DNA of 64,000 bases. It comes from Clostridia bacterium (GTDB lineage Bacteria > Bacillota > Clostridia > Christensenellales > Aristaeellaceae). The notes below the pieces were generated by a model. It did not search any database. It saw only the letters and a list, made by a program, of their open reading frames with translations, and was not told the DNA's origin. The first letter of the stretch is position 1. The number at the start of each line of letters is the position of its first letter. Shown piece by piece: positions 12,235-57,371 of this stretch. Both the position numbers and the translations under genes were made by a program. The stretch spans positions 53,676 to 117,675 of the forward strand of contig JAFSKN010000047.1 in NCBI GenBank assembly GCA_017448975.1, in the 5' to 3' direction.

Positions 12235-12255
12235 GAAAAATATCTTTCGTTTGCG

Positions 12256-12360
12256 CCTTATCTGCCAATACGTTTCCGTATTGCTGGAATTAGCACCTTG
12301 CGGTTTCCCGCCGGTTGCCGGGCTTCATCGGGCCAGTCCCTCAGCCGCTCTGGATAAGGT
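12256..12360 (-). ncRNA. SAM-I riboswitch (S-box) aptamer
   Basis: On the minus strand the P1 strands are CCTTATC (from 12359) and GATAAGG (to 12256). Inside are the diagnostic elements in order: AGAGCGGCTGAGGGACTGGC, CCGATGAAGCCCGGCAACC (the kink-turn region) and AAGGTGCTAATTCCAGC. These match the S-box consensus very closely. It binds S-adenosylmethionine and promotes termination ahead of metK. Confidence 0.96.
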
Positions 12361-41556: not shown

Positions 41557-42438
41557 TTATTCGGCAGGGTTTACCATCGAGGCGAGGCCTTCCGCGCCGT
41601 AAGTCTGGAACAGAATGACGTACATATCAATCAAGTCCGCATAGTCCGGGTATTTTTCCTTCAGCGCGTTGGTGAAGCTCTCCAAGTCGATCTCTTCGCC
41701 GGCCTGGACCTTTTCAATCAGCTGTGCCACCTCTAACATGATCTCATTCATTTCCGCGAAAGGATCTTCCGGTTCGTCCACCGTGCCGTCGGTGTGGAAC
41801 CGCAAATCATATCCCCACTCCGTAATGCCGGCCAGCGCCATGCTTTTTACCACCAGGTCGCCTTCTGTGCCGTTCTCCTGGGCGGCGAAATACTGATCCA
41901 TGTCCGCATCCACCACACAGTAGTAGTCAAAGACGCCATAACGCAGCCAATAAACGATGATGATCTTAGCATCCTCATCGACATCTGTTCCGTTGCTCCC
42001 GATTTCAAAGCCTTCTTCGGTGAGCTGCGCCAGGGTTTTCCCAAGATTGGCGATCATCTCTTCGCTCGTCAGCGGCAGGGCTGTGAACACCTCACTGTAA
42101 GCGATGAGCAGCGTTTTCAGGTACTCGTTGGCGGCATTCATCGCTGCTTCCAGCTGTTCAAAGAAGTCTTCCGCTTCAAAGTCCAGGTTATTGCTCGCTT
42201 CCTGCAGTTCAGTCATCTTTTCATCGTAATAGGCCACACTGCGGTAGTATTTTCCATCCTTCTGCGTAACCACGGCATAATAGTCTCCCTCGCCTCCCGC
42301 GATGATGCGGTCTTCAGCGCTGTCCTCCAGCGCCTCGCCAACCGTCGCGTACAGAGGCGCAAGCTGTCCTTCCGCAAGCGCGCCAAGCACCGTGCACATC
42401 ATGACCAACGCAAGGACCAACGAAATCATCTTTTTCAT
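41557..42438 (-). CDS. Secreted protein of unknown function
   Basis: Predicted 293 residues. A signal peptide (MKKMISLVLALVMMCTVLGALA) is followed by an acidic mature protein with an internal GGEGDYYAVVTQKDGKYYRSVAYYDEKM and DEDAKIIIVYWLRYGVFDYYCVVDADMDQYF. No domain is recognised. The ATG at 42438 has AAAGGAG 7 bases upstream; the longer frame is not used. It is on the same strand as the Rnf operon but separated from it by ~215 bases and a terminator-like hairpin. Confidence 0.7.
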   Translation of the reverse strand: MKKMISLVLALVMMCTVLGALAEGQLAPLYATVGEALEDSAEDRIIAGGEGDYYAVVTQKDGKYYRSVAYYDEKMTELQEASNNLDFEAEDFFEQLEAAMNAANEYLKTLLIAYSEVFTALPLTSEEMIANLGKTLAQLTEEGFEIGSNGTDVDEDAKIIIVYWLRYGVFDYYCVVDADMDQYFAAQENGTEGDLVVKSMALAGITEWGYDLRFHTDGTVDEPEDPFAEMNEIMLEVAQLIEKVQAGEEIDLESFTNALKEKYPDYADLIDMYVILFQTYGAEGLASMVNPAE

Positions 42439-42601
42439 ACTCTTTCTCCTTTTTTTATTGCTGTTTATTGCGATTTTGAAAACACCAAACCGGGGATATG
42501 CAGGCCACAAACGCTTATCACGGCGCGTATATGAGCCAGTACAGCTGGGCGGAAATCACGGCAGGCAGGCTGTTTTTCCGCGGCAGACGATAAACAGAGA
42601 T

Positions 42602-42655: not shown

Positions 42656-43441
42656 TTATTCAATCGTGATGCACTTGCAGGGACACACGGCGGCGCAGGC
42701 GCCGCAGCGGGTGCACTTTTCGGGATCGATGCGGGCGAAGCCGTTTTCCACGGTGATGGCGTCGTTCTGACATTCCTTCTTGCAGCGGCCGCAGCCGATG
42801 CAGGCGTCCATACAGACGGCGCGGGCGACGCGGGCGGTGTCGCTGTTGCGGCAGCGCACGATCACGCTGGCGCTGACGGGAAGCAATTTCAGCACGTTCC
42901 GGGGGCAGGCCTTGACGCAGGCGCCGCAGGCGGTGCACTTATCGGGGTCCACCTTGCAAAGGCCGTTTTCCATGGTGATGGCGCCGAAAGCGCATTTATC
43001 CATACAGTCGCCCAGGCCCAGGCAGGCAAAGCGGCAGTCCTTGGGGCCTCCGGCCAGACCGGCGGCGGTGGAGCAGCTCTGGTAGCCGTCGTACTGGTAG
43101 CGATCCTTGGCGATACCGGCGGAACCCTGGCACAGGACGCGGCAGACCAGCTTTTCGCCGATGACCGCTTCCTGGCCCATGATTTTGCCGATGGCTTTCG
43201 CGCCTTTTTCACCGGCGGGGGCGCAGCCGTTCACGGGCGCTTCGCCCGCGACCACGGCGGCGGCAAAGCCGTCGCAGCCGGGATAGCCGCAGGCGCCGCA
43301 GTTGGCGCCGCCCAAGCACTCGCGCACCTGGGCCACGCGCTCATCCACTTCCACGTGGAACTTTTTGCTGGCAAAGGTCAGCACCGCGCCGAAAATGATC
43401 CCCAGCGCTCCTAACAGGATACCGGCATACAGAATGGTCAT
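42656..43441 (-). CDS. rnfB: Rnf complex subunit RnfB (iron-sulfur protein)
   Basis: Predicted 261 residues. One N-terminal transmembrane helix is followed by the 4Fe-4S motif CLGGANCGACGYPGCDGF (about 43-60) and a C-terminal ferredoxin-like array including CTACGACVKACP, CIGCGRCKKEC and CTRCGACAAVCP. RnfB accepts electrons from ferredoxin. It is the last gene of the operon apbE-nusG-II-rnfG-C-D-E-A-B. Confidence 0.95.
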   Translation of the reverse strand: MTILYAGILLGALGIIFGAVLTFASKKFHVEVDERVAQVRECLGGANCGACGYPGCDGFAAAVVAGEAPVNGCAPAGEKGAKAIGKIMGQEAVIGEKLVCRVLCQGSAGIAKDRYQYDGYQSCSTAAGLAGGPKDCRFACLGLGDCMDKCAFGAITMENGLCKVDPDKCTACGACVKACPRNVLKLLPVSASVIVRCRNSDTARVARAVCMDACIGCGRCKKECQNDAITVENGFARIDPEKCTRCGACAAVCPCKCITIE

Positions 43442-43454
43442 ATCGCTTCCCTCC

Positions 43455-44036
43455 TTATACCAAGCCCTGGAAGCCCATGAAAGCCACGGCCATCAGCCCG
43501 GCGGAGACCAGGGTGATGGGGAAACCCTTCATGCAGGCGGGGATTTTGCTGCTCTCCAGCCGCTCGCGCACGCCCGCCATCAGCACGATGGCCAGCAGGA
43601 AGCCCAGGGCGGAGAAGGTGCCGTTCAGCACGGACTGGAGCAGGCCGTAAGCGTTGTTCATGTTCAGGGTGGCAACGCCCAGCACCGCGCAGTTGGTGGT
43701 GATCAGGGGCAGGTAGATGCCCAGGGCGCTGTACAGGGTGGGGCTGCTCTTTTTCAGGAACATTTCCACGAACTGAACCAGAGCGGCGATGACCAGGATG
43801 AAGGAAATGGTGCTCATGTAGGTCAGGTTCAGGGGAATGAGCAGCAGGTTATAGATCAGCCAGCAGAAGAGGGAGGCGATGGTCATGACGAAGGTAACGG
43901 CCAGGCCCATGCTCACGCTGGTTTCCACCTTGCTGGATACGCCCAGGAAGGGACAGCAGCCAAGGAAACGGGAGAAGATGAAGTTGTTGGTCAGAATGCA
44001 GCTGACCATGAACAGCAGGATTTCAGTAATGCTCAT
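43455..44036 (-). CDS. rnfA: Rnf complex subunit RnfA
   Basis: Predicted 193 residues, six transmembrane helices, typical length. LTNNFIFSRFLGCCPFLGVS carries the conserved cysteines that hold the intramembrane iron-sulfur centre together with RnfE. The start overlaps the rnfE stop (ATGA). Confidence 0.95.
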   Translation of the reverse strand: MSITEILLFMVSCILTNNFIFSRFLGCCPFLGVSSKVETSVSMGLAVTFVMTIASLFCWLIYNLLLIPLNLTYMSTISFILVIAALVQFVEMFLKKSSPTLYSALGIYLPLITTNCAVLGVATLNMNNAYGLLQSVLNGTFSALGFLLAIVLMAGVRERLESSKIPACMKGFPITLVSAGLMAVAFMGFQGLV

Positions 44037-44671
44037 GCCGCCTGCGCCTCCTTCGCCGCGTTTTTCTTTTCGATTTTCTTAACGATCAGGTTGAACACGC
44101 CCAGCAGCAGGCCGAAGGTGAGGAAGCCGCCGGAGGCCAGCACGATCAGCAGCATGGGTTCGTAGGACGCGCCCAAGACGTTCTGGCCGAAGATGGAGCC
44201 GCTGCCGATCAGCTCACGGATGGAGCCGATGAGGGTGAGGGCCAGAGTGAAGCCGATGCCCATGCCCAGGCCGTCGCAGGCGGAGGCCAGCGGCGGATTT
44301 TTGCTGGCGAAGGCCTCGGCCCGGGCCAGGATGATGCAGTTCACCACGATCAGGGGAATGAAGATGCCAAGGCTTTCATACAGGGAGGGCAGAAACGCCT
44401 GCATGAGCAATTGCACCATGGTCACGAAGGTGCAGATCACCACGATGAAGGCGGGAATGCGCACCTGATCCGGAATGAACTTCCTAAGCAGGGAAATGGC
44501 GATGTTGGAGCATACCAGCACGAAGGTGGCCGCAGCGCCCATGCCCAGGCCGTTCAGGGCGCTGGAGGTGACCGCCAGGGTGGGGCAGGTGCCCAGCACC
44601 AGGCGGAAGGTGGGGTTTTCGGGGATAATGCCGTTGAAGAAGACTTTCCCCAGGCTCTTTTTCTCGCTCAT
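44033..44671 (-). CDS. rnfE: Rnf complex subunit RnfE
   Basis: Predicted 212 residues with six transmembrane helices. LVLGTCPTLAVTSSALNGLGMG is the RnfE signature, the counterpart of RnfA. It follows rnfD directly (ATGA overlap): the rnfG gene that normally stands between D and E is absent from this position. Confidence 0.95.
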   Translation of the reverse strand: MSEKKSLGKVFFNGIIPENPTFRLVLGTCPTLAVTSSALNGLGMGAAATFVLVCSNIAISLLRKFIPDQVRIPAFIVVICTFVTMVQLLMQAFLPSLYESLGIFIPLIVVNCIILARAEAFASKNPPLASACDGLGMGIGFTLALTLIGSIRELIGSGSIFGQNVLGASYEPMLLIVLASGGFLTFGLLLGVFNLIVKKIEKKNAAKEAQAA

Positions 44672-45618
44672 GCTTTCTTAGCCTCCTTCTTCTGATAGCC
44701 GTAAATCTTCTGGGGCAGGAAGCGGTCGATGAGGGGCGTAGCGATATTCATCAGCAGGATGCCGTAGGTGACGCCCTCGGGATAGTTGCCGAACTGGCGG
44801 ATGAGCACGATGATCAGGCCGATCAGCGCAGCGTAAATGATCTGCGCCACGGGCCGGATGGGGGATGTGACGTAGTCCGTCGCCATGAACACCGCGCCGA
44901 AGAGCACGCCGCCGGACAGGGTGGCGATCAGGGCGGATTCAAAGCCGCCGCCCACGATCAGCAGGGTGAACACGTACACGCTGCCCACCATGACCACGGG
45001 GATGCGCCAGGAAATGGTGGAGGTGCATACCAGGAACAGGAAGCCGATCAGGATGGCGATCTTGCTCACTTCGCCGATGGTGCCGGGGATCTGGCCCAGC
45101 AGGCGCTGCATCAGGGTATAGCTGCCGGGGCTGGACAGGGGCGTGGCGGCGGAAACCGCGTCCACGCCCGCCTCGAAGAAGGTGGGCTTCACGTAGGCGG
45201 AAGCGGCCATGTGCACGGGCCAGGAGGCCAGCAGCACGGCGCGGGCCGCCAGGGCGGGGTTAAGGAAGTTATCGCCCAAGCCGCCGAACAATTGCTTGAC
45301 CACAATGATGGCGAAGGCGCTGCCCACCATGGCCATCCACCAGGGGGCGGTGGAGGGCAGGTTCAGGCCCAAGATCAGGCCGGTGAGGATGGCGGAAAAA
45401 TCGTTGACGCGCACGGGCTGATGGGCGATCTTCTGCCACAGGAATTCGGAAACGACCGCGCTCGCCACCGAAACGGCCAGCACCATCAGGGCCGGGAAGC
45501 CGAAAGCGTACACGCCGACCAGCACCGTGGGCATCAGCGCGATACATACATTCTGCATCAGCCGCGAGGTAGTCAGCGGGTTATGCATATGCGGGGCGGT
45601 GGAGATTCTCAGGCTCAT
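44668..45618 (-). CDS. rnfD: Rnf complex subunit RnfD
   Basis: Predicted 316 residues, an integral membrane subunit. The flavin-attachment region reads VDAVSAATPLSSPG, matching the RnfD motif (S/T)xATPL where FMN is bound to threonine. It overlaps rnfC (ATGA). Confidence 0.95.
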   Translation of the reverse strand: MSLRISTAPHMHNPLTTSRLMQNVCIALMPTVLVGVYAFGFPALMVLAVSVASAVVSEFLWQKIAHQPVRVNDFSAILTGLILGLNLPSTAPWWMAMVGSAFAIIVVKQLFGGLGDNFLNPALAARAVLLASWPVHMAASAYVKPTFFEAGVDAVSAATPLSSPGSYTLMQRLLGQIPGTIGEVSKIAILIGFLFLVCTSTISWRIPVVMVGSVYVFTLLIVGGGFESALIATLSGGVLFGAVFMATDYVTSPIRPVAQIIYAALIGLIIVLIRQFGNYPEGVTYGILLMNIATPLIDRFLPQKIYGYQKKEAKKA

Positions 45619-47069
45619 TTGGTCGCGCCTCCTTTCTGCTTGCTCGCATGGCCTGCGCTTTGCTTGCCCATGCTATCTACGTCTTTTGAGGTTGCCGCGT
45701 TCCGCGCCGCATCCCCGGAAGGGGGCTGCGGCTTGGAGGCGGCGGCCTTGGCCTTGGCTTCCGCGGTAATGTGATCCTTGCAGAATTTAAAGGACGGCGT
45801 CAGCCACCGGCGGGACGGGCACTGGTAGGCGCAGGAGCCGCACAGGATGCAGTCCATCACGTGCAGCTTTTCCGCGGCGGCGAAATCGCTCTTGTCGGCG
45901 GCCACCTTGATCTGGTAGGGGTTCAGGCCGATGGGGCAGGCGGCAACGCAGCGTCCGCAGTGGATGCAGGGGCTTTCGTCCTTGCTCTTTGCCTGCTTTT
46001 CATTCAGCACCACGATGCCGTTGCTGGATTTGAAAACGGGCATTTGGTCGTTGGGGATGGCGATGCCCGTCATCATGCCGCCGAACACGATCTTGCCGGG
46101 GGTTTCGGAATAGCCGCCGCATTCGCCGATGATGTCCTCGGTGATGGTGCCGATGCGCACCATCAGGTTGGAGGGCTTGCGTACGCAGCCGGTGACGGTG
46201 CAGATGCGCTGAATGAGGGGCTTGCCGTCGATGACGGCGTCGGCGATGGCGGCGCAGGTGCCCACGTTCAGCACCACCACGTGGGCGGCGATGGGCAGGC
46301 CGCCGGAGGGCACCTGACGGCCGGTGATGGCTTCGATCAGCTGTTTTTCACCGCCCTGGGGATACTTGGTTTTGAGGGGCTGCACCGATACGCCCGCCCG
46401 GCCCTGGCAGGCCTGCTCCATGGCAACGATGGCTTCGGGCTTGTTATCCTCGATGCCGATGATGCCCTTGGGCACGTTCAGGGCCCGCATCACGGCACGC
46501 AGGCCGTCCACGATGCGGGTGGAGTGCTCCAGCATCAGGCGGTAGTCGGCGGTCAGATGGGTTTCACATTCCGCGCCGTTGACCACGATGGTGTCGCAGG
46601 TAGCGCCTTCCCGGAAAGTGAGCTTCACATGGGTGGGGAAGGACGCGCCGCCCATGCCGGTGATGCCCGCCGCCTGAATGGCGGGGATCACGGCCTTGGG
46701 GTCCACCTGCTCCACATTGCCCAGGGGATGGAGCTCCACCCAGGTATCGGCAAAGTCGTTTTTGATGGTGACGGCCTGCACGTTGCCCGCGCCTAAGGAG
46801 GGGATGGAATCAACAGCCACCACTTCGCCGCTGACGCTGGCGTGCACCGGTACGCTCATGAAGCCCTGGGCTTCGCCGATCACCTGGCCGATGTCCACGT
46901 GGTCGCCCTTCTTGACGCAGGGCTTGGCGGGCGCGCCGATGTTCATGGCCATGGAAATCACCACGGTGTCGGAAACATACTCCCGGACGGGCAAATCGCG
47001 GGTGGCGCTTTTGCCCTCGTGCATGTTATGCAGGGGATGAACCCCCCGCTTAAATGTTTTCGTAAGCAA
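45615..47069 (-). CDS. rnfC: Rnf complex subunit RnfC (NADH-binding)
   Basis: Predicted 484 residues. The N-terminus has the Complex I 51-kDa-like domain (GITGMGGASFPTHVKL, VVLNVGTCAAIADAV) for FMN and NADH, followed by two ferredoxin motifs, CIHCGRCVAACP and CILCGSCAYQCP. The C-terminal ~50 residues are a low-complexity Ala/Lys/Ser tail. The start is the TTG at 47069 with AAGGAGG 8 bases upstream. It follows rnfG by 33 bases. Confidence 0.95.
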   Translation of the reverse strand: MLTKTFKRGVHPLHNMHEGKSATRDLPVREYVSDTVVISMAMNIGAPAKPCVKKGDHVDIGQVIGEAQGFMSVPVHASVSGEVVAVDSIPSLGAGNVQAVTIKNDFADTWVELHPLGNVEQVDPKAVIPAIQAAGITGMGGASFPTHVKLTFREGATCDTIVVNGAECETHLTADYRLMLEHSTRIVDGLRAVMRALNVPKGIIGIEDNKPEAIVAMEQACQGRAGVSVQPLKTKYPQGGEKQLIEAITGRQVPSGGLPIAAHVVVLNVGTCAAIADAVIDGKPLIQRICTVTGCVRKPSNLMVRIGTITEDIIGECGGYSETPGKIVFGGMMTGIAIPNDQMPVFKSSNGIVVLNEKQAKSKDESPCIHCGRCVAACPIGLNPYQIKVAADKSDFAAAEKLHVMDCILCGSCAYQCPSRRWLTPSFKFCKDHITAEAKAKAAASKPQPPSGDAARNAATSKDVDSMGKQSAGHASKQKGGATK

Positions 47070-47102: not shown

Positions 47103-49664
47103 TCACTGCTGCCCGGCGGAAGATTGGTTGTAAGCGTCGTTGATAGCGATCACGATGGCGTTCACCACGTAAGCGGGCAAACTTCCCATGCTGTCCAGGA
47201 AATCCGCCGGATTCAGGGGCATTTCCCGGCCGATCAGCGCGCTCTCCAGCGCCGGATCATCCAGATAAACCAGATCTTCTGGCTTTTCAGCGCCTTCAGG
47301 AACGATAATGATCGCGTATTTCACCAGTGTGTTGCCGTCAAACGCAGTCGCCGCATGGTACTGAGTGAAGAACATGATGCTGCTGCCAAGAGCGAATTTG
47401 ATGGACTCGTCAGCCGCCGTCTGGCCGGACGCGCCGAACGCCTGATTGAGGGCGATGGCCACAGCGGAGGCATAAGGCGTCATCTGGTTATTGTCAATGG
47501 GCAGGGCCGCGCCGATAAATTGGGCTTCCATGGCAGCCTGCCGGCTGCTGGGAGCAAAGTCCTTTTCACTGCCGATCTGCTTATCGGAAACGTTCAGGGC
47601 GGCCACTTTGCCATCCGCGAACTGCGCTTCCACCTTGACGGCGGTGAAGAAGCAGATCACTTCGCTGGTGTACCAGCCATCGCTGTCCACTGTGGCGGGC
47701 AGGATGATGGCGGTAGGTTCGTCCGCGCCGCCAATGATTTCAGGTTCGGCGGGGGAGGCGGGAGCGGGCTTAGCTTTCACCGCGCCGCCCTGGGCGTAAT
47801 ACGCCGCGTTGATGGCGCTGGCTACCAGGGCCGCTTCGGAGGTTTCCTGATCCTCCACAGCCAGGGGCAGGGTGGCGGCCAGGAACAGATTCTTCATTTC
47901 AGCATCCAGGCCGCTGACGGCATAGGCCTGCTCCGTACCCGCGGGACGCTCCATGACCACCAGGCCCGCCACGGTGTTCTGCACGAAGGAAACCTTCACC
48001 TGCAGATCGTTCTTCTGGGTGGCGATGGTGGCGGTATTGCGGATATCCTTAAAGGCGGAAGCGGAGGCTGTTTCTGCCTGGGCAGGTTCTTCTTCGGTCC
48101 CGGCTTCTTCGCCGCTCAGGCTCTTTTCATAGGCGGCGTTCAGGGCGTCCACCACGGCAGTGCTGGTGACGGTTGCACCGGCGATGGCGTCGATGTCGGC
48201 TAAAGTCAGCGGCATCTGCTTGCCGATGAACTGGGCCTGGAAGCTGTCTTCCAGCGCTTTCGCGCCAAGCCCTGTGGTTTCATTGAAGGAACTGTCGCCG
48301 ATGCTGATCGAAGTGATCTTGCCCTCAGCGTCAAAGGCGGCGGATACGGCCACGGGGCCGCCGAAGCCCTGGGCGGAAGCGGTAAAGCTGTTCTCAGCGG
48401 GCGCCTTGGTTTCGGCGGGCGCTTCCGTGACGGCGGGTTCTTCGATCACTTCGCCCTTGGAAGCGGCATAGGCCTTATTCAGACCGTTCACGATGGCGGT
48501 CTTGGTGAAGGTCGCGCCGGTGAGCGTATCGATGTCGCCGATTTCAAGGGGCATCTGCTTGCCGATGAAGGGGTACTGCTCCTCGGCTTCCAAGGCGCGC
48601 GCGCCGAAGCCGTCGGTCTCGGCAAACTGATCGTCGCCCACGCCAAGATAGGTGATCTTGCCTTCTTCGTCGAAAGCGGCTTCCACGTACACAGGGCCCG
48701 CGAAGCCCTGTTCGGCGGCGCTGAACACGCCCTGGTTGGGCTTTTCAGGCATGGTGGGAGTTTCGGGCACCACGATCTCCGCGCCGCCCGCGATGGCGTA
48801 GGCGCTGTTCAGGGCCTTTACCACGGCGGTGGAGGAAATGGTGGCGCCGGCGATCACGTCGATGTCGCTGACTTCCAGAGGCATCTGTTTGCCGATGAAC
48901 TGGATCATGAAGTCCGGCTCAATGACGCCCACGCCGATGTCCTCGGCGAAGCTCTCGTCGCCCACCTTGATGTAGGTGACTTTTCCGGCGGCGTCAAAGG
49001 CGGCTTCCACGTACACCGGGCCCCGGAAGCCCTTTTCGGACGCGCTGAAAACGCCGTCCGCAGGCTTTGCGGGCATTTCTACACCGGCAATGCCCAGCAC
49101 GTCGGCCTTGATGTACTTGACGATGTCGTTCACGCCGTTGACCACGGCGGTGGTGGTGATGGTGGCGCTGGTCAGCGCGTCCACGGTGCTTTCCGTAGCG
49201 GTGCCGCCAGCCTTGATATAGCTGACGGGGTATACCTTTCCGGCAAACTGATCGGTGAAGGCGGGCTCCTTGGAGCGAGCGCCCAAACCGGCCGTTTCGG
49301 AGAAGCTGGAACCGCCGACGGAAATACCGCCGATGGTGAACGTTTCAGGCGCCCCGGTGGTATCCACGCCCGCGATCACTTCGACCTTGCCGCCGAAGCC
49401 GTTCACCGTTTTCTGGGCCACGTAGCCCACGGCGTTCCCGTCTTTGAGCCCGGCATAGGCCCAATCCACCGACGCGCCTTCTGTCAGCGTCAGTTCCTCA
49501 AAGCTGTCCGCATTGGGCAGCGCGGCCTTGCGGGCGTTATCCGCCGCAAGTACTGCCTGCTGCGCTATGGGCTTTTGGGTCAGGGCGTACGTACCGCCCA
49601 GGGCGAGGCCTGCTGCCAAAGTGATGATCAGCAGCACGGCCCAACCAGGAAGCTGTTTCTTCAC
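47103..49664 (-). CDS. rnfG: Giant RnfG-like protein with tandem FMN-binding domains
   Basis: Predicted 853 residues against ~200 for a normal RnfG. One transmembrane helix lies at 9-29. Four FMN_bind-type domains follow, with flavin-attachment motifs TSATIT (165-170), AGATIS (272-277), TGATFT (382-387) and AGATVT (495-500). Domains 2-4 repeat FIGKQMPLE...DID before the motif, a sign of recent duplication. Domain 1 fits the normal RnfG. Three more repeats (about 535-625, 655-745 and 750-848) keep the fold-like ending (SAINAAYY, ASAVAIALNQAF, YVVNAIVIAINDAYN) but lack GAT. The start is the GTG at 49664 with AAGGAGG 10 bases upstream. The protein would carry several FMNs outside the membrane. 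Confidence 0.85.
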   Translation of the reverse strand: MKKQLPGWAVLLIITLAAGLALGGTYALTQKPIAQQAVLAADNARKAALPNADSFEELTLTEGASVDWAYAGLKDGNAVGYVAQKTVNGFGGKVEVIAGVDTTGAPETFTIGGISVGGSSFSETAGLGARSKEPAFTDQFAGKVYPVSYIKAGGTATESTVDALTSATITTTAVVNGVNDIVKYIKADVLGIAGVEMPAKPADGVFSASEKGFRGPVYVEAAFDAAGKVTYIKVGDESFAEDIGVGVIEPDFMIQFIGKQMPLEVSDIDVIAGATISSTAVVKALNSAYAIAGGAEIVVPETPTMPEKPNQGVFSAAEQGFAGPVYVEAAFDEEGKITYLGVGDDQFAETDGFGARALEAEEQYPFIGKQMPLEIGDIDTLTGATFTKTAIVNGLNKAYAASKGEVIEEPAVTEAPAETKAPAENSFTASAQGFGGPVAVSAAFDAEGKITSISIGDSSFNETTGLGAKALEDSFQAQFIGKQMPLTLADIDAIAGATVTSTAVVDALNAAYEKSLSGEEAGTEEEPAQAETASASAFKDIRNTATIATQKNDLQVKVSFVQNTVAGLVVMERPAGTEQAYAVSGLDAEMKNLFLAATLPLAVEDQETSEAALVASAINAAYYAQGGAVKAKPAPASPAEPEIIGGADEPTAIILPATVDSDGWYTSEVICFFTAVKVEAQFADGKVAALNVSDKQIGSEKDFAPSSRQAAMEAQFIGAALPIDNNQMTPYASAVAIALNQAFGASGQTAADESIKFALGSSIMFFTQYHAATAFDGNTLVKYAIIIVPEGAEKPEDLVYLDDPALESALIGREMPLNPADFLDSMGSLPAYVVNAIVIAINDAYNQSSAGQQ

Positions 49665-49773
49665 GTGGTTCCGTCCTCCTTGCTCTGTTTCCCGGAAGGA
49701 AAGGGAAACACAGTTTTCTTTATCCCCGGTACGCCCGGGAAAAGGGCCAAACCTGACCCTGTGGAAACGTTAT

Positions 49774-50325
49774 TTAGATGTCCGGCGCGTTGGGGTCCGG
49801 CGTATGGCTGGGAACGATCAATTCCAAATCCACGTTGTTGGGCAGGCACAGCACGGACGCGCCCAAAATGCGCTGCTGGTAGTTATCGACCGTCACCTCG
49901 CCCTGCTGCACGCAAAGCTGATTGTCGCAGGTGGAGGAGGCCATGTAAAAGCCGTTTTCCGTCATGTGGATCACGTTGACCTTGCCGTTGCCCTGATCCA
50001 CGGTCACGTCCCCTTCTTCGCCCACGGCGTAAATGCCGGAAATGCGTCCGTTCACGATAATATACATGTAGGCTTCGGCTTCCGTCGCTTTTTCCGTCGC
50101 TTTTTCCGGCGTTTTTTCCGTCGCTTTTTCCGGCGTTTCGCTTTGCCCTTCATCGGGAAGGGCGGTAGGTGCGGGGGAGGCCTGCACAAGTTCGGCGATC
50201 TGCTGCTGGATTTCTTCCTGGCTGCGTTCCGCGCCGGGATTCAGGAAGCGCGCAGCGAGGATCAGCCCCAGGGAAAGCAGCAGCAGCACGCCGATAACCA
50301 GCGCGTTTTTCATTCCGGGCTTCAT
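49774..50325 (-). CDS. Membrane-anchored NusG domain II protein
   Basis: Predicted 183 residues. One transmembrane helix (about 8-26), a linker with EKATEKTPEKATEKATEA repeats, then a NusG-II domain (about 88-183) with VNVIHMTENGFYMASSTCDNQLCVQQGEV and ILGASVLCLPNNVDLELI. NusG-II proteins are often found beside FMN-binding/Rnf genes; their function is unknown. It overlaps the apbE stop (ATGA) and is followed by a 109-base gap before rnfG. Confidence 0.82.
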   Translation of the reverse strand: MKPGMKNALVIGVLLLLSLGLILAARFLNPGAERSQEEIQQQIAELVQASPAPTALPDEGQSETPEKATEKTPEKATEKATEAEAYMYIIVNGRISGIYAVGEEGDVTVDQGNGKVNVIHMTENGFYMASSTCDNQLCVQQGEVTVDNYQQRILGASVLCLPNNVDLELIVPSHTPDPNAPDI

Positions 50326-51416
50326 ACCGCGCCTCCCGCGTTTTTAAGCGAGCGCAGATACTGCGCCATGCCGCACGAAGCCTGCTGCGTGCCGTCCGTC
50401 AGCATCCACAGGGCTTCCACGCCCTCCATGCTATCGATCAGCTTTAAGCCGTCCTTCGGGGACAGCACAAACAGGGTGGTGCTCAAAAAGTCCGCCAGGG
50501 TGGAGCTTTCGCAGATGATCGTGACGGAAATCATTTTGGTGGAAGGGAACAGGGTTTCCGGGTCGATGATGTGGTGATAGCGCTGCCCGTCCACCACGTA
50601 GTAGCGCCAGTAATCGCCGCTGGTGACCACGGTGAGATCATGCACATCCACGATATCCCGGTACATAAGCCCGCCGCCGTTTTCATCCGGCCTTGGGTCC
50701 TCCACGCCTACGGCCCAGTTGGCGCGGCCGTCCAGGGGCGCGTCCCCGGCATATACGTTGCCGCCTAAGCTGATGAGGAAGGAGGGCATATGCTCCTTGA
50801 GGTAAGGCAGCACCGCGTCCGCCGCCCAGCCCTTGGCCACCGCCCCCACGTCCAGGGTGATTTGGGGATCGGCAAAGAATACGGTCTGTTTTTCGGCATC
50901 CAGGATCACCTGGTCAAAATCCGTGTGCTTACTGGCGGCCAGCAGGTCTTCCATGGGCGGCAGCTGGGCGGCTTCGGGATTCGCCAGACCCGCTTCCCGG
51001 TAGGTATGCCAGATGGAAAGCACCGCGCCCATAGCGATGTTGGTGCTGCGCAGGCCCCTGCTCCATTGCTCCTTGCACCAGGAAATGAGGGCAAACAGCT
51101 CCTCGGGGATTTCCACGGGGGCTTCCGCCGCGTGGCGGTTCACATAGTACAGGTTGTTGAGATCCTCATAGGCGTTATAAGCGTCGAACACCTGATCAAA
51201 GCGCCGGAGCAGCGCCATGGTATCGTCAAAAGCCCGATCAAATTCCTCCTGGGTGCGGGCATAGCCCATCAGGGTGATTTCGGTATCGAAAATATCCAGG
51301 GCGCGGCGGGAAAATTTGGTATACGTGTTTTCAGAAAGACAGGCTGGCATAAGCGCTGTTACAGCCAAAAGCGCAGCAAGCGCAAAACAGAAAACGGATT
51401 TAAAATTCAGTTTCAT
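50322..51416 (-). CDS. apbE: FAD:protein FMN transferase
   Basis: Predicted 364 residues with an N-terminal signal sequence; a Cys after LMPA could be lipidated, though the lipobox is not canonical. ApbE attaches FMN to threonines of FMN-binding domains outside the cell membrane. Motifs include ITLDVGAVAKGWAADAV, ISLGGNVYAGD, TSGDYWRYYVVDG and HHIIDPETLFPS (the usual HxxDPxTG lacks its glycine). Its place at the head of the operon, just before a protein with four flavinylation motifs, explains its job. ATG 51416 (GAGGG 4 bases upstream) is preferred over ATG 51434. Confidence 0.92.
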   Translation of the reverse strand: MKLNFKSVFCFALAALLAVTALMPACLSENTYTKFSRRALDIFDTEITLMGYARTQEEFDRAFDDTMALLRRFDQVFDAYNAYEDLNNLYYVNRHAAEAPVEIPEELFALISWCKEQWSRGLRSTNIAMGAVLSIWHTYREAGLANPEAAQLPPMEDLLAASKHTDFDQVILDAEKQTVFFADPQITLDVGAVAKGWAADAVLPYLKEHMPSFLISLGGNVYAGDAPLDGRANWAVGVEDPRPDENGGGLMYRDIVDVHDLTVVTSGDYWRYYVVDGQRYHHIIDPETLFPSTKMISVTIICESSTLADFLSTTLFVLSPKDGLKLIDSMEGVEALWMLTDGTQQASCGMAQYLRSLKNAGGAV

Positions 51417-51483
51417 GGGGCCCTCGCTTTCCATGAGTTTACGCGAATAAATGCCCCTCGATGAGGCAGTTATTTCTATATGT

Positions 51484-51512
51484 ATTATAACAAAGAGTAA
51501 ACGACTGCACAA
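51484..51512 (-). promoter_or_regulatory. Promoter of the apbE-rnf operon
   Basis: On the minus strand TTGTGC (51512-51507) and TATAAT (51489-51484) are 17 bases apart, about 60 bases upstream of apbE. Confidence 0.7.
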
Positions 51513-51654: not shown

Positions 51655-51737
51655 AAACGGGCTGATGCAATTTCCTATTTTAATTTGTAGAAAAACCGCG
51701 GGGGCCGCCGGGCTTGCCCGCCGGAAACGAGGCAAAC

Positions 51738-52202
51738 ATGGGACTGTTGATTTTTTTATTTTGGATCGTCCTGAACGGGCGGATGACGCTGGAAATCGCG
51801 TGCGTCGGCGCGGCCGTGACGGCCGCCGCGATCCTGTTTATGTGCCGGATGTGCGACTGGTCGCTGAAAAAGGAAGGGCGGCTGTATATCGCCCTGCCCA
51901 AGATCCTTGATTACATCTTTACGGTGATTTGGGAAATCGTGAAAGCCAACCTTGGCATGTGCCGCCTGGTGTACGGCGGGAAACCCGATCCCCGGGTGCG
52001 CACCCTCCGCACAAGCCTTCAAACCCGTTTGGCGCGCATGGCCCTTTCCAACGCCATTACCCTCACCCCCGGCACCATCACCTTGGCCTGCCAGGGGGAC
52101 GAGCTGACCGTGCACTGCCTGACCCCCGCCCTGGCCGAGGGGCTGGATCATCTGATTTTTGAAACCAAGCTGGAAAGAATCGAGGCGACGCTCCTTGGAT
52201 AA
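51738..52202 (+). CDS. Na+/H+ antiporter subunit E (MnhE/MbhA)
   Basis: Predicted 154 residues. N-terminal helices (MGLLIFLFWIVLNGRMTLEI) are followed by the MNHE signature ANLGMCRLVYGGKPDPRV, RMALSNAITLTPGTITLACQ. It is the first gene of a nine- or ten-gene antiporter operon. The start at 51738 is preferred over a TTG at 51714. It overlaps the next gene by 8 bases. Confidence 0.9.
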   Translation: MGLLIFLFWIVLNGRMTLEIACVGAAVTAAAILFMCRMCDWSLKKEGRLYIALPKILDYIFTVIWEIVKANLGMCRLVYGGKPDPRVRTLRTSLQTRLARMALSNAITLTPGTITLACQGDELTVHCLTPALAEGLDHLIFETKLERIEATLLG

Positions 52203-52500
52203 CGTGTACGCGCTGCTTTTGTATATCGCCATGGGCGTGCTGGGGCTGTGCCTGTTCGTGTGCCTGTTTCGGGCTTTCCGGGGGCCGGCCCCGGCGGACC
52301 GGGTGATCGCCGTGAACATGACGGGCACCATCGTGATCACGCTGATCCTGTTTCTTTCGTTGCTGCTCAAGGAAGGGTATCTGGTGGACATCGCTTTGAT
52401 TTACGCCATGCTTTCCTTCTTGGCCGTGGTGCTGCTGTGCCGCATTTCCATCGGCGCGTACAGGGCCCGCAAGGAAAAGGAGGAAAAAAAGGATGCTTGA
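52195..52500 (+). CDS. Antiporter subunit F (MnhF/MbhB)
   Basis: Predicted 101 residues with three transmembrane helices. FRGPAPADRVIAVNMTGTIVI and YLVDIALIYAMLSFLAVV are family hallmarks. The start is the TTG at 52195 (GAGG 9 bases upstream), overlapping the mnhE stop; a GTG at 52204 is the alternative. Confidence 0.9.
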   Translation: MDNVYALLLYIAMGVLGLCLFVCLFRAFRGPAPADRVIAVNMTGTIVITLILFLSLLLKEGYLVDIALIYAMLSFLAVVLLCRISIGAYRARKEKEEKKDA

Positions 52501-52819
52501 ATATCTGCGGCTTTTCCTTTTCGCCGTCTTGCTTTTGGCGGGGCTGATCATTCAGCTGACAGCGGTTTTGGGCGTGAACCGGTTTCGCTTCGCCGTGAAC
52601 CGCATGCATCCCGCGGGCATGGCGGACACCCTGGGCCTTTTGCTCATGGCGCTTTCCGCCGTGGTATATGCGGGCTTTGACTGGATCACGCTGAAAATTC
52701 TCCTGGTGGTGGCGCTTTTCTGGATCACCAGCCCGGTTTGCAGCCACCTGATCGGCAGGCTGGTGCGGGAAACGGACGAAGAGCACTTTGAAGCGGAGGC
52801 GAAGGAATGGAAAGCCTGA
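52493..52819 (+). CDS. Antiporter subunit G (MnhG/MbhC)
   Basis: Predicted 108 residues with three transmembrane helices. RFAVNRMHPAGMADTLGLLLM and FWITSPVCSHLIGRLVRE match the PhaG/MnhG/YufB family. It overlaps both neighbours. Confidence 0.9.
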   Translation: MLEYLRLFLFAVLLLAGLIIQLTAVLGVNRFRFAVNRMHPAGMADTLGLLLMALSAVVYAGFDWITLKILLVVALFWITSPVCSHLIGRLVRETDEEHFEAEAKEWKA

Positions 52820-53076
52820 ACGTGATCCTGCTTTTGTTCATCATCGTCTGCGCCGTGGCGGTGGCCGTCACCCGGAATCTTTTGTCCGCCGTGATCATCT
52901 TCATGGCCCAGGGGCTGGTGCTTTCTGTGGTGTGGATTTTGCTGCGCTCCCCGGATTTAGCCATTACGGAGGCCGCCGTGGGCGCGGGCATATCGTCCAT
53001 TCTCATGTTCGCCGCCCTGAAAAAGATCCGGGCCATCGGCGGGAAGGAGGGCCAGGCGGATGAAAAAGAAAAATGA
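52807..53076 (+). CDS. DUF4040/MbhD-type antiporter subunit
   Basis: Predicted 89 residues with three helices. The core LLRSPDLAITEAAVGAGISSILMFAAL is that of MbhD, equivalent to the penultimate part of MrpA. Its presence as a separate gene is characteristic of MBH-type modules, not classical Mrp. Confidence 0.88.
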   Translation: MESLNVILLLFIIVCAVAVAVTRNLLSAVIIFMAQGLVLSVVWILLRSPDLAITEAAVGAGISSILMFAALKKIRAIGGKEGQADEKEK

Positions 53077-54007
53077 CGCCTTTTCCCGCCTGCTGGACTG
53101 GCTGGAAAACGGGGATCAGGCCCTGGACACCGAAATGGAGGACAGCCTTTCGGATGCGTCCCCGGCGGAACACATCAAGCAAAAAAAGAAGAAGAAAGCC
53201 GATAAACGGAAAACAGCGTCCAAGGGCGCGTCCGCGCCGCGCCGTGCCTACGCGGACAGCTGGTGGTACAGGACCTGCGCGGTGGTCATCTGCCTGTCGC
53301 TGATCGGTCTTTTGCTGTTCACCGCCCTGCGGCTGCCCGAATTCGGCACCGCCGACACCCTGATCGACAGCGAACTGACGGAATATTATGTCGAGCATAC
53401 CTTGGAGGAAACCGGCGCGGTGAATATCGTCACCGGCATTATCCTGGATTACCGCGGCTTTGATACCTTGGGCGAAAGCCACGTGCTGTTCATTGCCGTG
53501 TGCACGGTGCTGCTGATGCTGAGCGTGCGGGGCGAAAAAAATGAGGCGCTCCGCCTGAAAGCCAATGAATACGAACGGCATTTTGAGCCGGAGGACGATC
53601 TGATTCTCCAGTCCGCCGCCCGCATCCTGTCGCCGCTGACGCTGGTGTTCGGCCTGTACATCATTTTCAACGGCCACCTGTCCCCTGGCGGGGGCTTTTC
53701 CGGCGGAGCCATTTTGGGCGCCGGGCTGATCCTGTACCAGAACGCCTTCGGCTATGAAAAGACCGAACGATTCTTTACCTACAAAACCTTCCGCTGGGTA
53801 TCGGTGTGCGCCCTGCTGTTTTACTCCGCCGCCAAAGGCTACCATTTCTTTACCGGGGCCAACCACCTGGAAAACGGCATTTCTCCCGGTGTGGCGGGCA
53901 ATATCCTGTCCGCCGGGCTGCTGCTGCCGCTGAACTTCGCGGTGGGCTGCGTGGTGGCCTGCACCATGTACGCCCTGTACACCATGTTCAGAAAGGGGGA
54001 GTTCTGA
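53060..54007 (+). CDS. Fused MbhE-MnhB antiporter subunit
   Basis: Predicted 315 residues. A charged N-terminal extension (about 1-68, with KQKKKKKADKRK) precedes an MbhE-like part (VNIVTGIILDYRGFDTLGESHVLF, about 113-136) and an MnhB/MbhF part (ARILSPLTLVFGLYIIFNGH, LSPGGGFSGGAILGAGLIL). In archaeal MBH these are two genes (mbhE and mbhF). It overlaps the DUF4040 gene and shares a base with mnhC. Confidence 0.85.
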   Translation: MKKKNDAFSRLLDWLENGDQALDTEMEDSLSDASPAEHIKQKKKKKADKRKTASKGASAPRRAYADSWWYRTCAVVICLSLIGLLLFTALRLPEFGTADTLIDSELTEYYVEHTLEETGAVNIVTGIILDYRGFDTLGESHVLFIAVCTVLLMLSVRGEKNEALRLKANEYERHFEPEDDLILQSAARILSPLTLVFGLYIIFNGHLSPGGGFSGGAILGAGLILYQNAFGYEKTERFFTYKTFRWVSVCALLFYSAAKGYHFFTGANHLENGISPGVAGNILSAGLLLPLNFAVGCVVACTMYALYTMFRKGEF

Positions 54008-54381
54008 TGGAAAAGCTGATTTACGAGCACCTGGACGAAGTGACGGCCCTGGTGCTCTTCGGCGTGGGCTTCACCCTGCTGCTGGTGGACAAGAATTTGA
54101 TCAAAAAGATTATCGGCTTTTCCATGATGGACAGCGGCATTTATCTGTTCTTAGCCTCCTACGGCTATATCGAATCCCGCTTAGCGCCCATTTACGTGGA
54201 TGGGATCACCGATCCTGCCGCTTATGTGAACCCCCTGCCCGCCGGGCTGGTGCTGACGGGCATCGTGGTGGGCGTCAGCGTGACGGCGGTGATGCTGGGC
54301 CTGACTGTGCGCCTGTACCAGCGCTACCGCACCCTGGATATGGATGAAATCGCCGAACGGATTCGGGGAGAGGGGAAATGA
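54007..54381 (+). CDS. Antiporter subunit C (MnhC/MbhG, NuoK-like)
   Basis: Predicted 124 residues with three helices. FGVGFTLLLVDKNLIKKIIGFSMMDSGIYLFL and GLVLTGIVVGVSVTAVMLGL are typical of the NuoK-like subunit. TGATG overlap with the preceding gene and ATGA overlap with the next. Confidence 0.92.
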   Translation: MEKLIYEHLDEVTALVLFGVGFTLLLVDKNLIKKIIGFSMMDSGIYLFLASYGYIESRLAPIYVDGITDPAAYVNPLPAGLVLTGIVVGVSVTAVMLGLTVRLYQRYRTLDMDEIAERIRGEGK

Positions 54382-55880
54382 CCATGACGTGGTGGCAAAA
54401 TCTTCCCCTGTTCCTGATCCTGTGCCCGCTGATGTGCGCGGCTGCCTGCTCGGCACTGAAAGGCAAGGCGGCCCGGGCGGTGATCACCGCGCTGTCCGCC
54501 CTGGAATGTGCGGGGATGGGCATCCTGCTGTATTACACGGCAAAGGGCAATGAAAGCTTCGTCTACGCCATGGGCGAGATCGGCGCGCCCTTCGGCAACG
54601 AACTGCGGGTAGGGCCCCTGGAAGCCCTGACGGGCCTGGCTTTTTCCCTGGTGCTGCTCACCGCCATCCTGGGCGGCTGGCAAAGGCTTACCCAGGACGT
54701 GGCCCCCAACCGCATGAACCTGTACGGCTCCGTCACCTGCCTGCTCACCTCCGCCATGGCGGCCATGGTGTTCACCAACGACCTGTTCACCGCCTATGTG
54801 TTCATCGAAATCTCCACCATCGCCTCCTGCGCCCTGATCTGCGCCAGCAACAAGGGAAAAACCCTGTTTTCCGCCGCCCGGTACATGATCATGAATCTGA
54901 TGGGCAGCGGCCTGTTCCTGCTGGGCTTATCGATGCTGTACTGCCTGACGGGGCATCTGCTGTTTCCCCAATTGGGCGCGGCGGTGCGGGGCTTGCTGGA
55001 AGGGGATCGGTATCCCATCCCGCTTTATATGTCCTTCCTGCTCATGACCTTGGGCGTCGCCATCAAAAGCGCCCTGTACCCCTTCCATACCTGGCTGCCC
55101 GACGCTTACGGCAACGCCACCGCCACTTCCAGCGCGGTGCTTTCTTCCCTGGTGTCCAAGCTGTATATCTTTTTGCTCATCAAGATTTTCCTTCGCGCGG
55201 CGGGCTGGGAAGTCTTCGCCCGCAGGATCGAGGATGTGCTGCTGCTCTACGCGGCGGCGGGCATGATCATGGGTTCGGTGCACGCCATCCGCCAGCGCCA
55301 TCTGACCCGCATGGTGGCCTATTCCTCCGTGGCGCAGATCGGTTATATTTTCCTGGGCATATCCCTGGGCACGGAGGCGGGCATGGCGGCGGCCGTGTAC
55401 CACATTCTGGCCCATTCCGCTGCCAAGGCCATGCTGTTCCTGTCCGCCAACCGCCTCCGGGAAGCCTCGGGGGATGAAGATACCTTTGCCGCCTTGCGTG
55501 GAAGCGCCCTCCGCGTCCCCATGGCCGGGCTGGCCTTTACGGTGGGCGCGTGTTCCCTGGTGGGCATTCCGGGCCTCGGCGGCTTTGCCAGCAAGCTGTA
55601 TTTGGCATCCGCCGGCGTGGAAGCGGGGGGCCTGCGCATGGCGATCGTGCTGGCCGCGCTGGCGGTCAGTACCTTGCTGAACGTGGCGTACATGCTGCGC
55701 AGCGTGCTGGTTCTGTACCGGAAAAAGGAAGAATTGAAAGAAACAGACCAAAGTATCCTTTGCCGGGACGGGTTCTTCGCCGTCGCTGCCGTTGCGCTGA
55801 TCCTGTTGAACCTGGTGCTGGGTCTGCTGGGCGGGCCGATCCTGCAATTGATCGAACAGGGCATCCGTTTGTTTGCCTGA
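54378..55880 (+). CDS. Antiporter-like channel subunit 1 (MnhD/NuoM-N family)
   Basis: Predicted 500 residues with about 14 transmembrane helices. The proton-path glutamate is in AYVFIEISTIASCALI and the lysine in LGVAIKSALYPFHTWLPDAYG. It is the position equivalent of mbhH. The first of four related channel subunits. Confidence 0.92.
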   Translation: MTMTWWQNLPLFLILCPLMCAAACSALKGKAARAVITALSALECAGMGILLYYTAKGNESFVYAMGEIGAPFGNELRVGPLEALTGLAFSLVLLTAILGGWQRLTQDVAPNRMNLYGSVTCLLTSAMAAMVFTNDLFTAYVFIEISTIASCALICASNKGKTLFSAARYMIMNLMGSGLFLLGLSMLYCLTGHLLFPQLGAAVRGLLEGDRYPIPLYMSFLLMTLGVAIKSALYPFHTWLPDAYGNATATSSAVLSSLVSKLYIFLLIKIFLRAAGWEVFARRIEDVLLLYAAAGMIMGSVHAIRQRHLTRMVAYSSVAQIGYIFLGISLGTEAGMAAAVYHILAHSAAKAMLFLSANRLREASGDEDTFAALRGSALRVPMAGLAFTVGACSLVGIPGLGGFASKLYLASAGVEAGGLRMAIVLAALAVSTLLNVAYMLRSVLVLYRKKEELKETDQSILCRDGFFAVAAVALILLNLVLGLLGGPILQLIEQGIRLFA

Positions 55881-55901
55881 TTGGAACGGGAGGATTTTCG
55901 T

Positions 55902-57359
55902 ATGAAGGCCTTATTGCTGGTTTTAACCGTACTGCTGCCCATCGCCCTGGCGCTGGTGTGGCGCTTCCGGCATTTGGAGGGGGAAAGCCTGAACAGGGCC
56001 ACCCTTTGCACTGTCGCCGCCGGGGCGTGCCTCGCCGCGCTTTCCGCGCTGCTGCCCCTGGAGGGAGAAATCTCCCTGCGCTGGACCGATATGCTCACGC
56101 TTTCCCTGCGGGTGGACGGGGTCAGCCGGGTGTGGCTGCTGCTGATCGCGGTGATTTGGCCTGGCGTGGCGCTGTACGCCACGGAATACCTGGAGCATGA
56201 CGCGAACCCCGGCCGCTTCTTCCTGTTTTATACCATCACCCAGGGCATCCTGCACGGGCTGGCCATGAGCGGCAACCTGGTCACCTTCTATATGTTCTAT
56301 GAGGCCATGACCCTGCTCACCGTGCCGCTGGTGCTGCATAACATGGACAAGGAAGCGGTTGCCGCCTCCATCAAGTACCTGATCTATTCGGTGATCGGCG
56401 CTTCCGCCGCCCTGATCGGCATTTTCTTCGTGGGCGCTGTGGGCGGCACCGGCGATTTTTCAGCAGGCGCTTTGACCGCCGGGCAATTGGCGGGCAGGGA
56501 AGGGCTGGCTATGGGCGTGTTCATGGCCATGCTGGTGGGCTTCGGCGTGAAAGCCGGTATGTTCCCCATGCACGGCTGGCTGCCCACCGCCCATCCCGTG
56601 GCCCCGGCCCCGGCCAGCGCCGTGCTGTCCGGCGTCATCACCAAAATGGGCGTGCTGGGCGTGATCCGGGTGCTGTATTCCATCGCGGGTGTGGAACGCC
56701 TGCGGGGTACCTGGGTGCAGATGGCGCTGCTGGGCCTGACCACCCTCACCATCCTCATGGGCTCCCTGCTGGCCCTCAAGGAAAAGAAGCTCAAAAAACG
56801 GCTGGCTTATTCCTCCGTTTCCCAGGTTTCCTATGTGCTGTTCGGCCTGTTCACCATGACGGAGATCGGCTTCGTGGGGGCCGTGCTTCATGTGATTTTC
56901 CATTCCCTCATGAAGAACACCCTGTTCATGTCGGCGGGCTCCATCATCCATAAGACCGAAAAAACCTATGTCACCGAAATGGACGGCCTGGGCCGCCGCA
57001 TGCCCTGGACCTACGCTTTCTTCACTGTGGCTTCTTTAGGTCTGGTAGGTATTCCTCCCACAGGCGGCTTCATCAGCAAGTGGAATCTGGCCCAGGGCGC
57101 GCTGGCGACGGGGCTGAATGTCAGCTGGATCGGCCCCGCGGTGCTGCTGACTTCCGCCATTTTGACGGCGGCTTACCTGTTCACGGTGGTGATCAAGGGC
57201 TGCTTCCCCGGGGAGGACGTAAAGCCCGAACCCAGCTGCGAGGCGGGCGTGCGCATGCTGGCCCCCATGGCCGTTTTCGCGGCGCTGATCGTGCTGCTGG
57301 GCGTGTTCTCCGGGCCCATGATTTCCTATCTGGAAACCCTGGCTTCCACGCTGCTGTAA
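55902..57359 (+). CDS. Antiporter-like channel subunit 2 (MnhD family)
   Basis: Predicted 485 residues, about 14 helices. Key residues are kept: glutamate in FYMFYEAMTLLTVPLV and lysine in GFGVKAGMFPMHGWLPTAHP. The ATG at 55902 (GGGAGG 9 bases upstream) is used. Similar in sequence to the next subunit, suggesting duplication. Confidence 0.92.
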   Translation: MKALLLVLTVLLPIALALVWRFRHLEGESLNRATLCTVAAGACLAALSALLPLEGEISLRWTDMLTLSLRVDGVSRVWLLLIAVIWPGVALYATEYLEHDANPGRFFLFYTITQGILHGLAMSGNLVTFYMFYEAMTLLTVPLVLHNMDKEAVAASIKYLIYSVIGASAALIGIFFVGAVGGTGDFSAGALTAGQLAGREGLAMGVFMAMLVGFGVKAGMFPMHGWLPTAHPVAPAPASAVLSGVITKMGVLGVIRVLYSIAGVERLRGTWVQMALLGLTTLTILMGSLLALKEKKLKKRLAYSSVSQVSYVLFGLFTMTEIGFVGAVLHVIFHSLMKNTLFMSAGSIIHKTEKTYVTEMDGLGRRMPWTYAFFTVASLGLVGIPPTGGFISKWNLAQGALATGLNVSWIGPAVLLTSAILTAAYLFTVVIKGCFPGEDVKPEPSCEAGVRMLAPMAVFAALIVLLGVFSGPMISYLETLASTLL

Positions 57360-57371
57360 GGAGTCATCGTC

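Follow-up and report, generated by a model that had tools for sequence, protein, structure and literature searches.

RnfG proteins with several flavins have been described before. The sections of Meheust et al. (2021; PMC8238504) considered here report multi-flavinylated RnfGs in RNF gene clusters, propose a second electron path for them and mention RnfGs of Christensenellales with a multi-heme domain; since both the multi-flavinylated RnfG and the idea of a second outlet appear in those sections, the kind of protein discussed below was already known in 2021. One study by Tong et al. (2023; PMC10339131), in the passages drawn on here, concerned SaFMN3 and CbFMN4, which carry covalent FMN; proteins with 3 and 4 FMNs were made, and SaFMN3 was found to have just one redox potential and to lack directionality. 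Beads-on-a-string models are presented in the excerpted part of Huang et al. (2024; PMC11334425), and the corresponding part of a 2025 review of Rnf (PMC12174285) gives one covalent FMN per RnfG.

The window analysed here, by which we mean the whole stretch of 64,000 nucleotides, contains a giant rnfG whose product has seven domains, D1 to D7 from the N-terminus (Table 1). This protein resembles 7zc6_G, which we take to be the canonical RnfG of Clostridium tetanomorphum, in having an N-terminal helix followed by an FMN_bind domain, but it has six extra domains, and its gene stands before rnfC whereas the canonical rnfG lies between rnfD and rnfE. Like the RnfGs of Meheust et al., it has more than one FMN_bind domain, is encoded in an RNF cluster and belongs to Christensenellales; unlike them, as those sections of PMC8238504 describe them, it has motif-less domains, a relocated gene and a leader hairpin, and it is without the multi-heme domain of their Christensenellales subset. 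With SaFMN3 and CbFMN4 it shares tandem, linker-joined FMN_bind domains, D4 matching domain 1 of CbFMN4 (8p2b); the passages of PMC10339131 that describe those two proteins mention no motif-less domains, whereas the window protein has them and has as its D1 an RnfG encoded in an rnf operon. Among the open-licence papers listed by searches on this clade, on domains lacking the motif and on rnfG gene order, no title or abstract opening gave a report of the motif-less tail or of the rnfG relocation. The protein appears, then, to be of a known kind, and its strongest new facts would seem to be the relocation of the gene, an apparently single-origin motif-less tail and a covarying hairpin before rnfG.

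The giant RnfG and its operon

The original prediction, of an 853-residue frame with four flavinylation motifs, agreed with our analysis in the position and length of the frame and in the exact starts of the motifs (TSATIT at residue 165, AGATIS at 272, TGATFT at 382 and AGATVT at 495). Translation starts at a GTG at 49664 on the minus strand, preceded by AGGAGG at 49680-49675. The search for FMN_bind (PF04205) which that prediction had proposed found four stretches (E 1.7e-46, 157.2 bits against a cut-off of 22) behind a single N-terminal helix, so that the protein has more than one such domain. D2 to D4, which had been called repetitive, are 59-62% identical to one another and 41-50% identical to D1. 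The assignment as RnfG was likewise upheld, by the complete Rnf operon with apbE, by alignment to 7zc6_G and by TIGR01947: residues 11-183 (of 189) of the solved RnfG align to residues 9-187 of the giant protein (E 3.5e-21), and TIGR01947 reaches 195.8 bits against a cut-off of 102 over the whole protein, as the sum of four stretches of which the best single one, at 90.5 bits, lies below that cut-off. As residues 9-187 cover nearly the whole of 7zc6_G and D4 resembles CbFMN4, D1 can be regarded as the real RnfG and D2 to D4 as additions. The picture of a four-domain protein was correct for the motif-bearing domains but overlooked three motif-less domains (residues 549-846), the outer third of the protein, and did not register that rnfG has moved within the operon. 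Alignment to RnfG suggests that the giant protein is exported and extracytosolic, and Thr168, Thr275, Thr385 and Thr498 are predicted to be flavinylated by ApbE.

Table 1. Features of the rnf operon and of the giant RnfG, in order of transcription (positions in the window).
Feature	Coordinates	Strand	Details
apbE, FAD:protein FMN transferase	50322..51512	(-)	PF02424 E 9.1e-61; ORF as listed, start may be further in
NusG domain II protein, between apbE and rnfG	49774..50325	(-)	PF07009 E 7.2e-9
RNA hairpin	49683..49713	(-)	directly upstream of the rnfG ribosome-binding site, after the NusG-II gene
Giant rnfG	47103..49664	(-)	853 aa, GTG start; TIGR01947 195.8 bits, 7zc6_G E 3.5e-21
N-terminal membrane helix	49578..49646	(-)	about residues 7-29, extent by eye; aligns with N-terminal part of 7zc6_G
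D1, RnfG domain proper	49116..49406	(-)	motif TSATIT, Thr168
D2, FMN_bind	48795..49037	(-)	motif AGATIS, Thr275
D3, FMN_bind	48465..48713	(-)	motif TGATFT, Thr385
D4, FMN_bind	48126..48374	(-)	motif AGATVT, Thr498; matches CbFMN4 domain 1 (8p2b, E 3.6e-5)
D5, FMN_bind-derived, without flavinylation motif	47796..48020	(-)	residues 549-623
D6, FMN_bind-derived, without flavinylation motif	47433..47660	(-)	residues 669-744
D7, FMN_bind-derived, without motif	47127..47378	(-)	residues 763-846; divergent in the window species
rnfC	45615..47069	(-)	TIGR01945 488.6 bits
rnfD	44668..45618	(-)	TIGR01946 298.9 bits
rnfE	44033..44671	(-)	TIGR01948 250.5 bits
rnfA	43455..44036	(-)	TIGR01943 257.7 bits
rnfB	42656..43441	(-)	TIGR01944 96.9 bits (cut-off 68.7); NF005503 249.4, just below cut-off 252

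A multi-heme domain in RnfG was considered and rejected: no CxxCH heme motif was found in the named loci (73 RnfG frames, of which 27 are truncated where a contig or locus ends) or in 28 genus genomes (32 RnfG frames), and the window protein has a single Cys and a single His.

The operon reads, on the minus strand, apbE, NusG-II, giant rnfG, rnfC, rnfD, rnfE, rnfA and rnfB, and as RnfA, B, C, D and E are all encoded with the giant RnfG, the Rnf is a complete six-subunit one. Its ApbE is the single one found in the window genome. An RnfD-family gene was present once per genome in 10 genus genomes; PF01794 (ferric-reductase/MsrQ type) had no match in the same 10 genomes, and PF12801, presumably of the NapH type, had none in the window genome. 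Hence, Rnf is the sole transmembrane donor among those tested, although such absences are soft because the window genome is 85% complete. Adjoining the rnf operon, at 51714-60982 on the plus strand, is an operon for a divergent Na+/H+ antiporter of the Mrp/Mbh type, which encodes four Proton_antipo_M proteins and is present, whole or in part, in the rnf-flanking stretches of 20 of 28 other genus genomes. Such a neighbour would suit Rnf, which is a pump for sodium or protons. Downstream of rnfB lies a gene for a putative secreted protein (41557-42510, minus strand), with no Pfam match above cut-off and no NCBIfam match at E 0.01.

The motif-less tail

The flavinylation motif [S/T]GAT is absent from D5, D6 and D7. 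Searched alone, the tail matched no Pfam family at E 0.01, and none of its three domains reached the gathering score; the tail as a known family was rejected on this silence of Pfam. A profile made from motif-bearing domains of other genomes only gave 16.0 bits for D5, 25.3 for D6 and 8.4 for D7, and since the best of 1000 tail shuffles scored 11.9 bits, D7 alone is not significant by that profile. When 16 D5/D6-type domains were compared with 12 motif-bearing domains by hhalign, the probability was 96.4% (E 1.4e-9, 73 columns) and the score 51.8, as against 16.0 for the best of 100 column shuffles, whose best probability was 1.9%. By this profile comparison, the D5/D6-type domains share ancestry with FMN_bind; D7 was left out of the tail profile, and the evidence for it is weaker. 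The alignment to FMN_bind has a six-residue gap across the stretch with the threonine. A regex scan found 39 tail-clade domains with neither the GAT-type motif nor the E-T-x-G-x-G stretch, which probably contacts the flavin, although this stretch is a weak marker, as 36 of 109 motif-bearing domains of other proteins miss the regex too. As the tail shows, counts of FMN_bind-like copies need a motif check before they are used as counts of flavins.

The AlphaFold model of the giant RnfG is weak (mean pLDDT 62.2, pTM 0.30) and its domain placement carries no meaning; with such a pTM, neither the inter-domain arrangement nor the inter-flavin distances can be taken from it. A helix is modelled at residues 7-48, with pLDDT mostly below 50. 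In each of D2 to D7 three strands are followed by helices, all in one strand-strand-strand-helix-helix order, and the cores of the tail domains have 10-residue pLDDT blocks of 63-85, apart from one block of 49 in D7.

Against the locus L110, dN/dS for D1 to D7 was 0.06, 0.08, 0.15, 0.16, 0.20, 0.15 and 0.85, respectively, and against L120 it was 0.37, 0.69, 0.78, 0.28, 0.36, 0.17 and 0.93. By these values, constraint on D5 and D6 seems similar to that on the motif-bearing domains next to them. D7 of the window species is the exception, with a dN/dS of 0.85 beside constrained neighbours and 51% identity to an otherwise very close L110, to which D1 is 96% identical. The domains differ widely in their identity to L120 (43% for D2, 30% for D3, 86% for D4 and 52% for D7), which suggests domain-level shuffling and, perhaps, that some pairs are non-orthologous. 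The L120 values for D2 and D3 may come from comparing such non-orthologous domains and do not indicate strong constraint.

Gene order, distribution and the leader hairpin

The N-terminal 200 residues of RnfG were matched in 29 of 29 genus genomes, which we count as 28 of 29 by excluding G044 (73% complete), whose match reached just E 2.6e-4. Named genomes contributed 73 loci in one scan, most of them in Clostridia MAGs of the ruminant gut, some of which bear the title Christensenella or Christensenellaceae; the loci were found via similarity to the RnfG of the window genus, and the sample is therefore uneven. The tree of RnfC, RnfD, RnfE and RnfA had 46 rows, each with at least three of the four proteins, and most loci cut inside rnfG are missing from it. 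It places the 25 operons in which rnfG precedes rnfC in a single group (SH-aLRT 92, not starred), implying one change. All but two of these 25 have a multi-domain RnfG (23/25; L127 and L137 have one domain), as against 1 of 21 operons with rnfG between rnfD and rnfE (L069, 393 aa, two domains), and the multi-domain state needs three changes on the tree. The 9 rows with the motif-less tail group together (99, starred), and the tail likewise needs one change. Our results suggest that rnfG was relocated to the operon front in one clade, apparently a new observation, and that the motif-less tail, of two to six domains, has one origin on the sampled tree; the tail was seen in the window genus only and is apparently new as well. 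One of the 21 operons with rnfG between rnfD and rnfE is counted there through a single 560-aa frame (L054:7212-8891, plus strand) with an RnfD match and FMN_bind at its end, an apparent RnfD-RnfG fusion.

Domain number varies widely, from 1 (L127, L137) to 14 (L126) within one clade. In a census of complete frames above 380 aa, 10 tail-clade proteins had 53 motif-bearing, 39 motif-less (2-6 each), 1 mixed and 4 partial domains. The 20 other proteins had 109 motif-bearing, 2 motif-less (L160, L161; both interrupted by a nested domain) and 4 partial domains; one of these proteins, L124, is no RnfG, and two more, L156 and L158, have apbE as a neighbour but showed no rnfC in their stretches. In the RnfGs of L160 and L161, as in L065 and L063, a complete second FMN_bind domain seems to be inserted into the first one and to divide it. 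A D5/D6-type profile matched the window genome only in an order-wide sample (1 of 297 genomes, 1 of 125 by genus), which has three genus members among the 21 genomes listed. Within the genus, it matched 19 of 29 genomes at E 1e-5, of which G002 and G008 did so only at about 1e-6, and some rows fall on motif-bearing domains.

The hairpin before rnfG shows covariation, with 8 of 10 pairs changed on both sides and 86.3% of cells paired over 24 genus rows; 27 rows were found in 28 loci, and the 3 not plainly showing the hairpin were dropped, which favours the result. Each of the five values exceeded those of all 500 shuffles. Slid versions of the hairpin gave at most 6 both-side pairs, 70.4% paired cells and a covariation score of 0.207 as against 0.298, though they reached 17 further pair types as against 18; the structure was taken from the window's own fold, which favours the hairpin over these versions. 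A known RNA was rejected, as Rfam gave no match. Looked for as a repeat, the two arms were found at one other place in the window genome. Our guess is that the hairpin may act in mRNA processing or stability.

Possible roles of the flavin string

Our best explanation, to which we would give about even chances, is that D1 performs the usual duty of an RnfG, D2 to D4 relay or hold electrons outward and D5 to D7 form a non-redox tail. Once ApbE had flavinylated the four threonines, D1 would carry electrons between the RnfA/E cluster and RnfD, as RnfG usually does, and D2 to D4, on their linkers, would take electrons from D1 and relay them outward or keep them there, forming a side branch of the Rnf pump toward extracytosolic acceptors. 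The tail might hold the string of flavins extended in the envelope or attach it to a partner. The presence of apbE, the only one found in the genome, in the rnf operon counts for a multi-flavin RnfG, as do the four motif-bearing domains and the comparable proteins with 3 and 4 covalent FMNs made by others. The explanation as a whole also draws on the RnfG identity and the complete operon, on Rnf as the sole donor among those tested, on the three proteins of the window genome that join FAD_binding_2 to FMN_bind, and on the homology of the tail to FMN_bind together with dN/dS values of D5 and D6 against L110 like those of D3 and D4 (0.15/0.16). Against it count the motif-less domains at the outer end, which do not lengthen a flavin chain, the one redox potential reported for SaFMN3, without directionality, and the dN/dS of D2 and D3 against L120. 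Candidate acceptors in the window genome would be flavoproteins of the FMN_bind/fumarate-reductase-like kind that look exported. These reductases fail as a universal acceptor and are kept as a candidate for the window genome only, since G024 (96% complete) and G007 (91%) have multi-domain RnfGs with 3 and 4 FMN_bind domains and FMN_bind was found nowhere else in either genome, which excludes exported reductases of this kind as acceptors in these two. A fuller version, of a dual-output Rnf in one gut Clostridia genus that joins RnfG, a flavin string and a selected class of flavin-less docking or spacing domains into a flavoprotein counterpart of the cytochrome conduits on an ion pump, is tentative and, to us, somewhat doubtful. 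If electrons do exit Rnf through the hypothetical conduit of the giant RnfG, the pump would be able to send them either to NAD or to an acceptor outside, a choice that would bear on redox balance in uncultured gut Clostridia. Related operons, whose RnfGs range from 1 to 14 domains with and without the tail, offer a natural set for testing the effect of additional tethered flavins.

The extra flavins could instead be an electron buffer, for storage in the pumping cycle or protection from oxidants, with no dedicated outlet. We think this unlikely but worth serious attention: the RnfGs of G024 and G007, with no FMN_bind found elsewhere, would suit it, as would a chain that ends in domains without a flavin site and, from the excerpted passages of Tong et al. 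(PMC10339131), the equipotential, oxygen-reactive flavins of SaFMN3, whereas other genus genomes have many FMN_bind matches beyond RnfG (G014 has 25, of which 6 are in its RnfG) and hence other flavoproteins to serve. It is also conceivable, though rather improbable, that the repeats are largely neutral, that tandem domains have been easily gained and lost since rnfG moved and that only D1 matters. The span from 1 to 14 domains within one clade agrees with this, as do the divergence of D2 and D3 from L120 (43 and 30% identity beside 86% for D4; dN/dS 0.69 and 0.78) and the dN/dS of 0.85-0.93 for D7; against it stand the values of 0.08-0.20 for D2 to D6 in the comparison with L110 and the retention of more than one domain in 23 of 25 G-first operons.

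Up to seven cofactors per protein would be reached if the tail domains bound flavin or another ligand non-covalently, for which the apparently kept order of strands and helices in the model and the seeming constraint on D5 and D6 could be cited; we hold this to be very unlikely, given the 39 tail-clade domains that lack both the GAT-type motif and the (weak marker) E-T-x-G-x-G stretch and a window protein with one Cys and one His. That a frameshift, mis-assembly or collapsed repeat accounts for the giant rnfG is extremely improbable. A contig ends inside rnfG in 10 of 29 genus genomes, which indicates that the repeats do trouble assembly. However, the same architecture is found across differently named MAG sets, the frame has no internal stop, D2 to D4 are merely 59-62% identical and dN/dS against L110 is low; the conserved architecture argues that rnfG is neither a frameshift nor an assembly duplication, the case that the original prediction had named against itself and that we looked for among relatives.

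The reductase-like proteins of the window genome share with RnfG an FMN_bind domain with the motif or a variant of it and differ from it in having FAD_binding_2. Three such domains occur with FAD_binding_2 in L071 (5944-8760, plus strand; contig C28 of the window genome, G000), and one each in L073 and L075. All three look exported, their signals having been read by eye, and L073 also has a TAT_signal match just below cut-off. Elsewhere in the genome, L074 combines FMN_bind with C_GCAxxG_C_C, and contig C74 has a partial FMN_bind match. In an FtsX permease on contig C44 (L072:924-2384, minus strand), an FMN_bind domain with SGATVTS precedes the FtsX domain, an arrangement that puts a redox domain in an ABC-type permease.

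In G018, rnfG is broken or mis-assembled: a stop-ended RnfG frame of 633 aa (L060:7535-9433) has no rnfC found downstream on its contig, and a second contig (L193) begins within a motif-less RnfG tail ahead of rnfC. The window itself also carries a SAM riboswitch (12255-12360, minus strand; Rfam RF00162).
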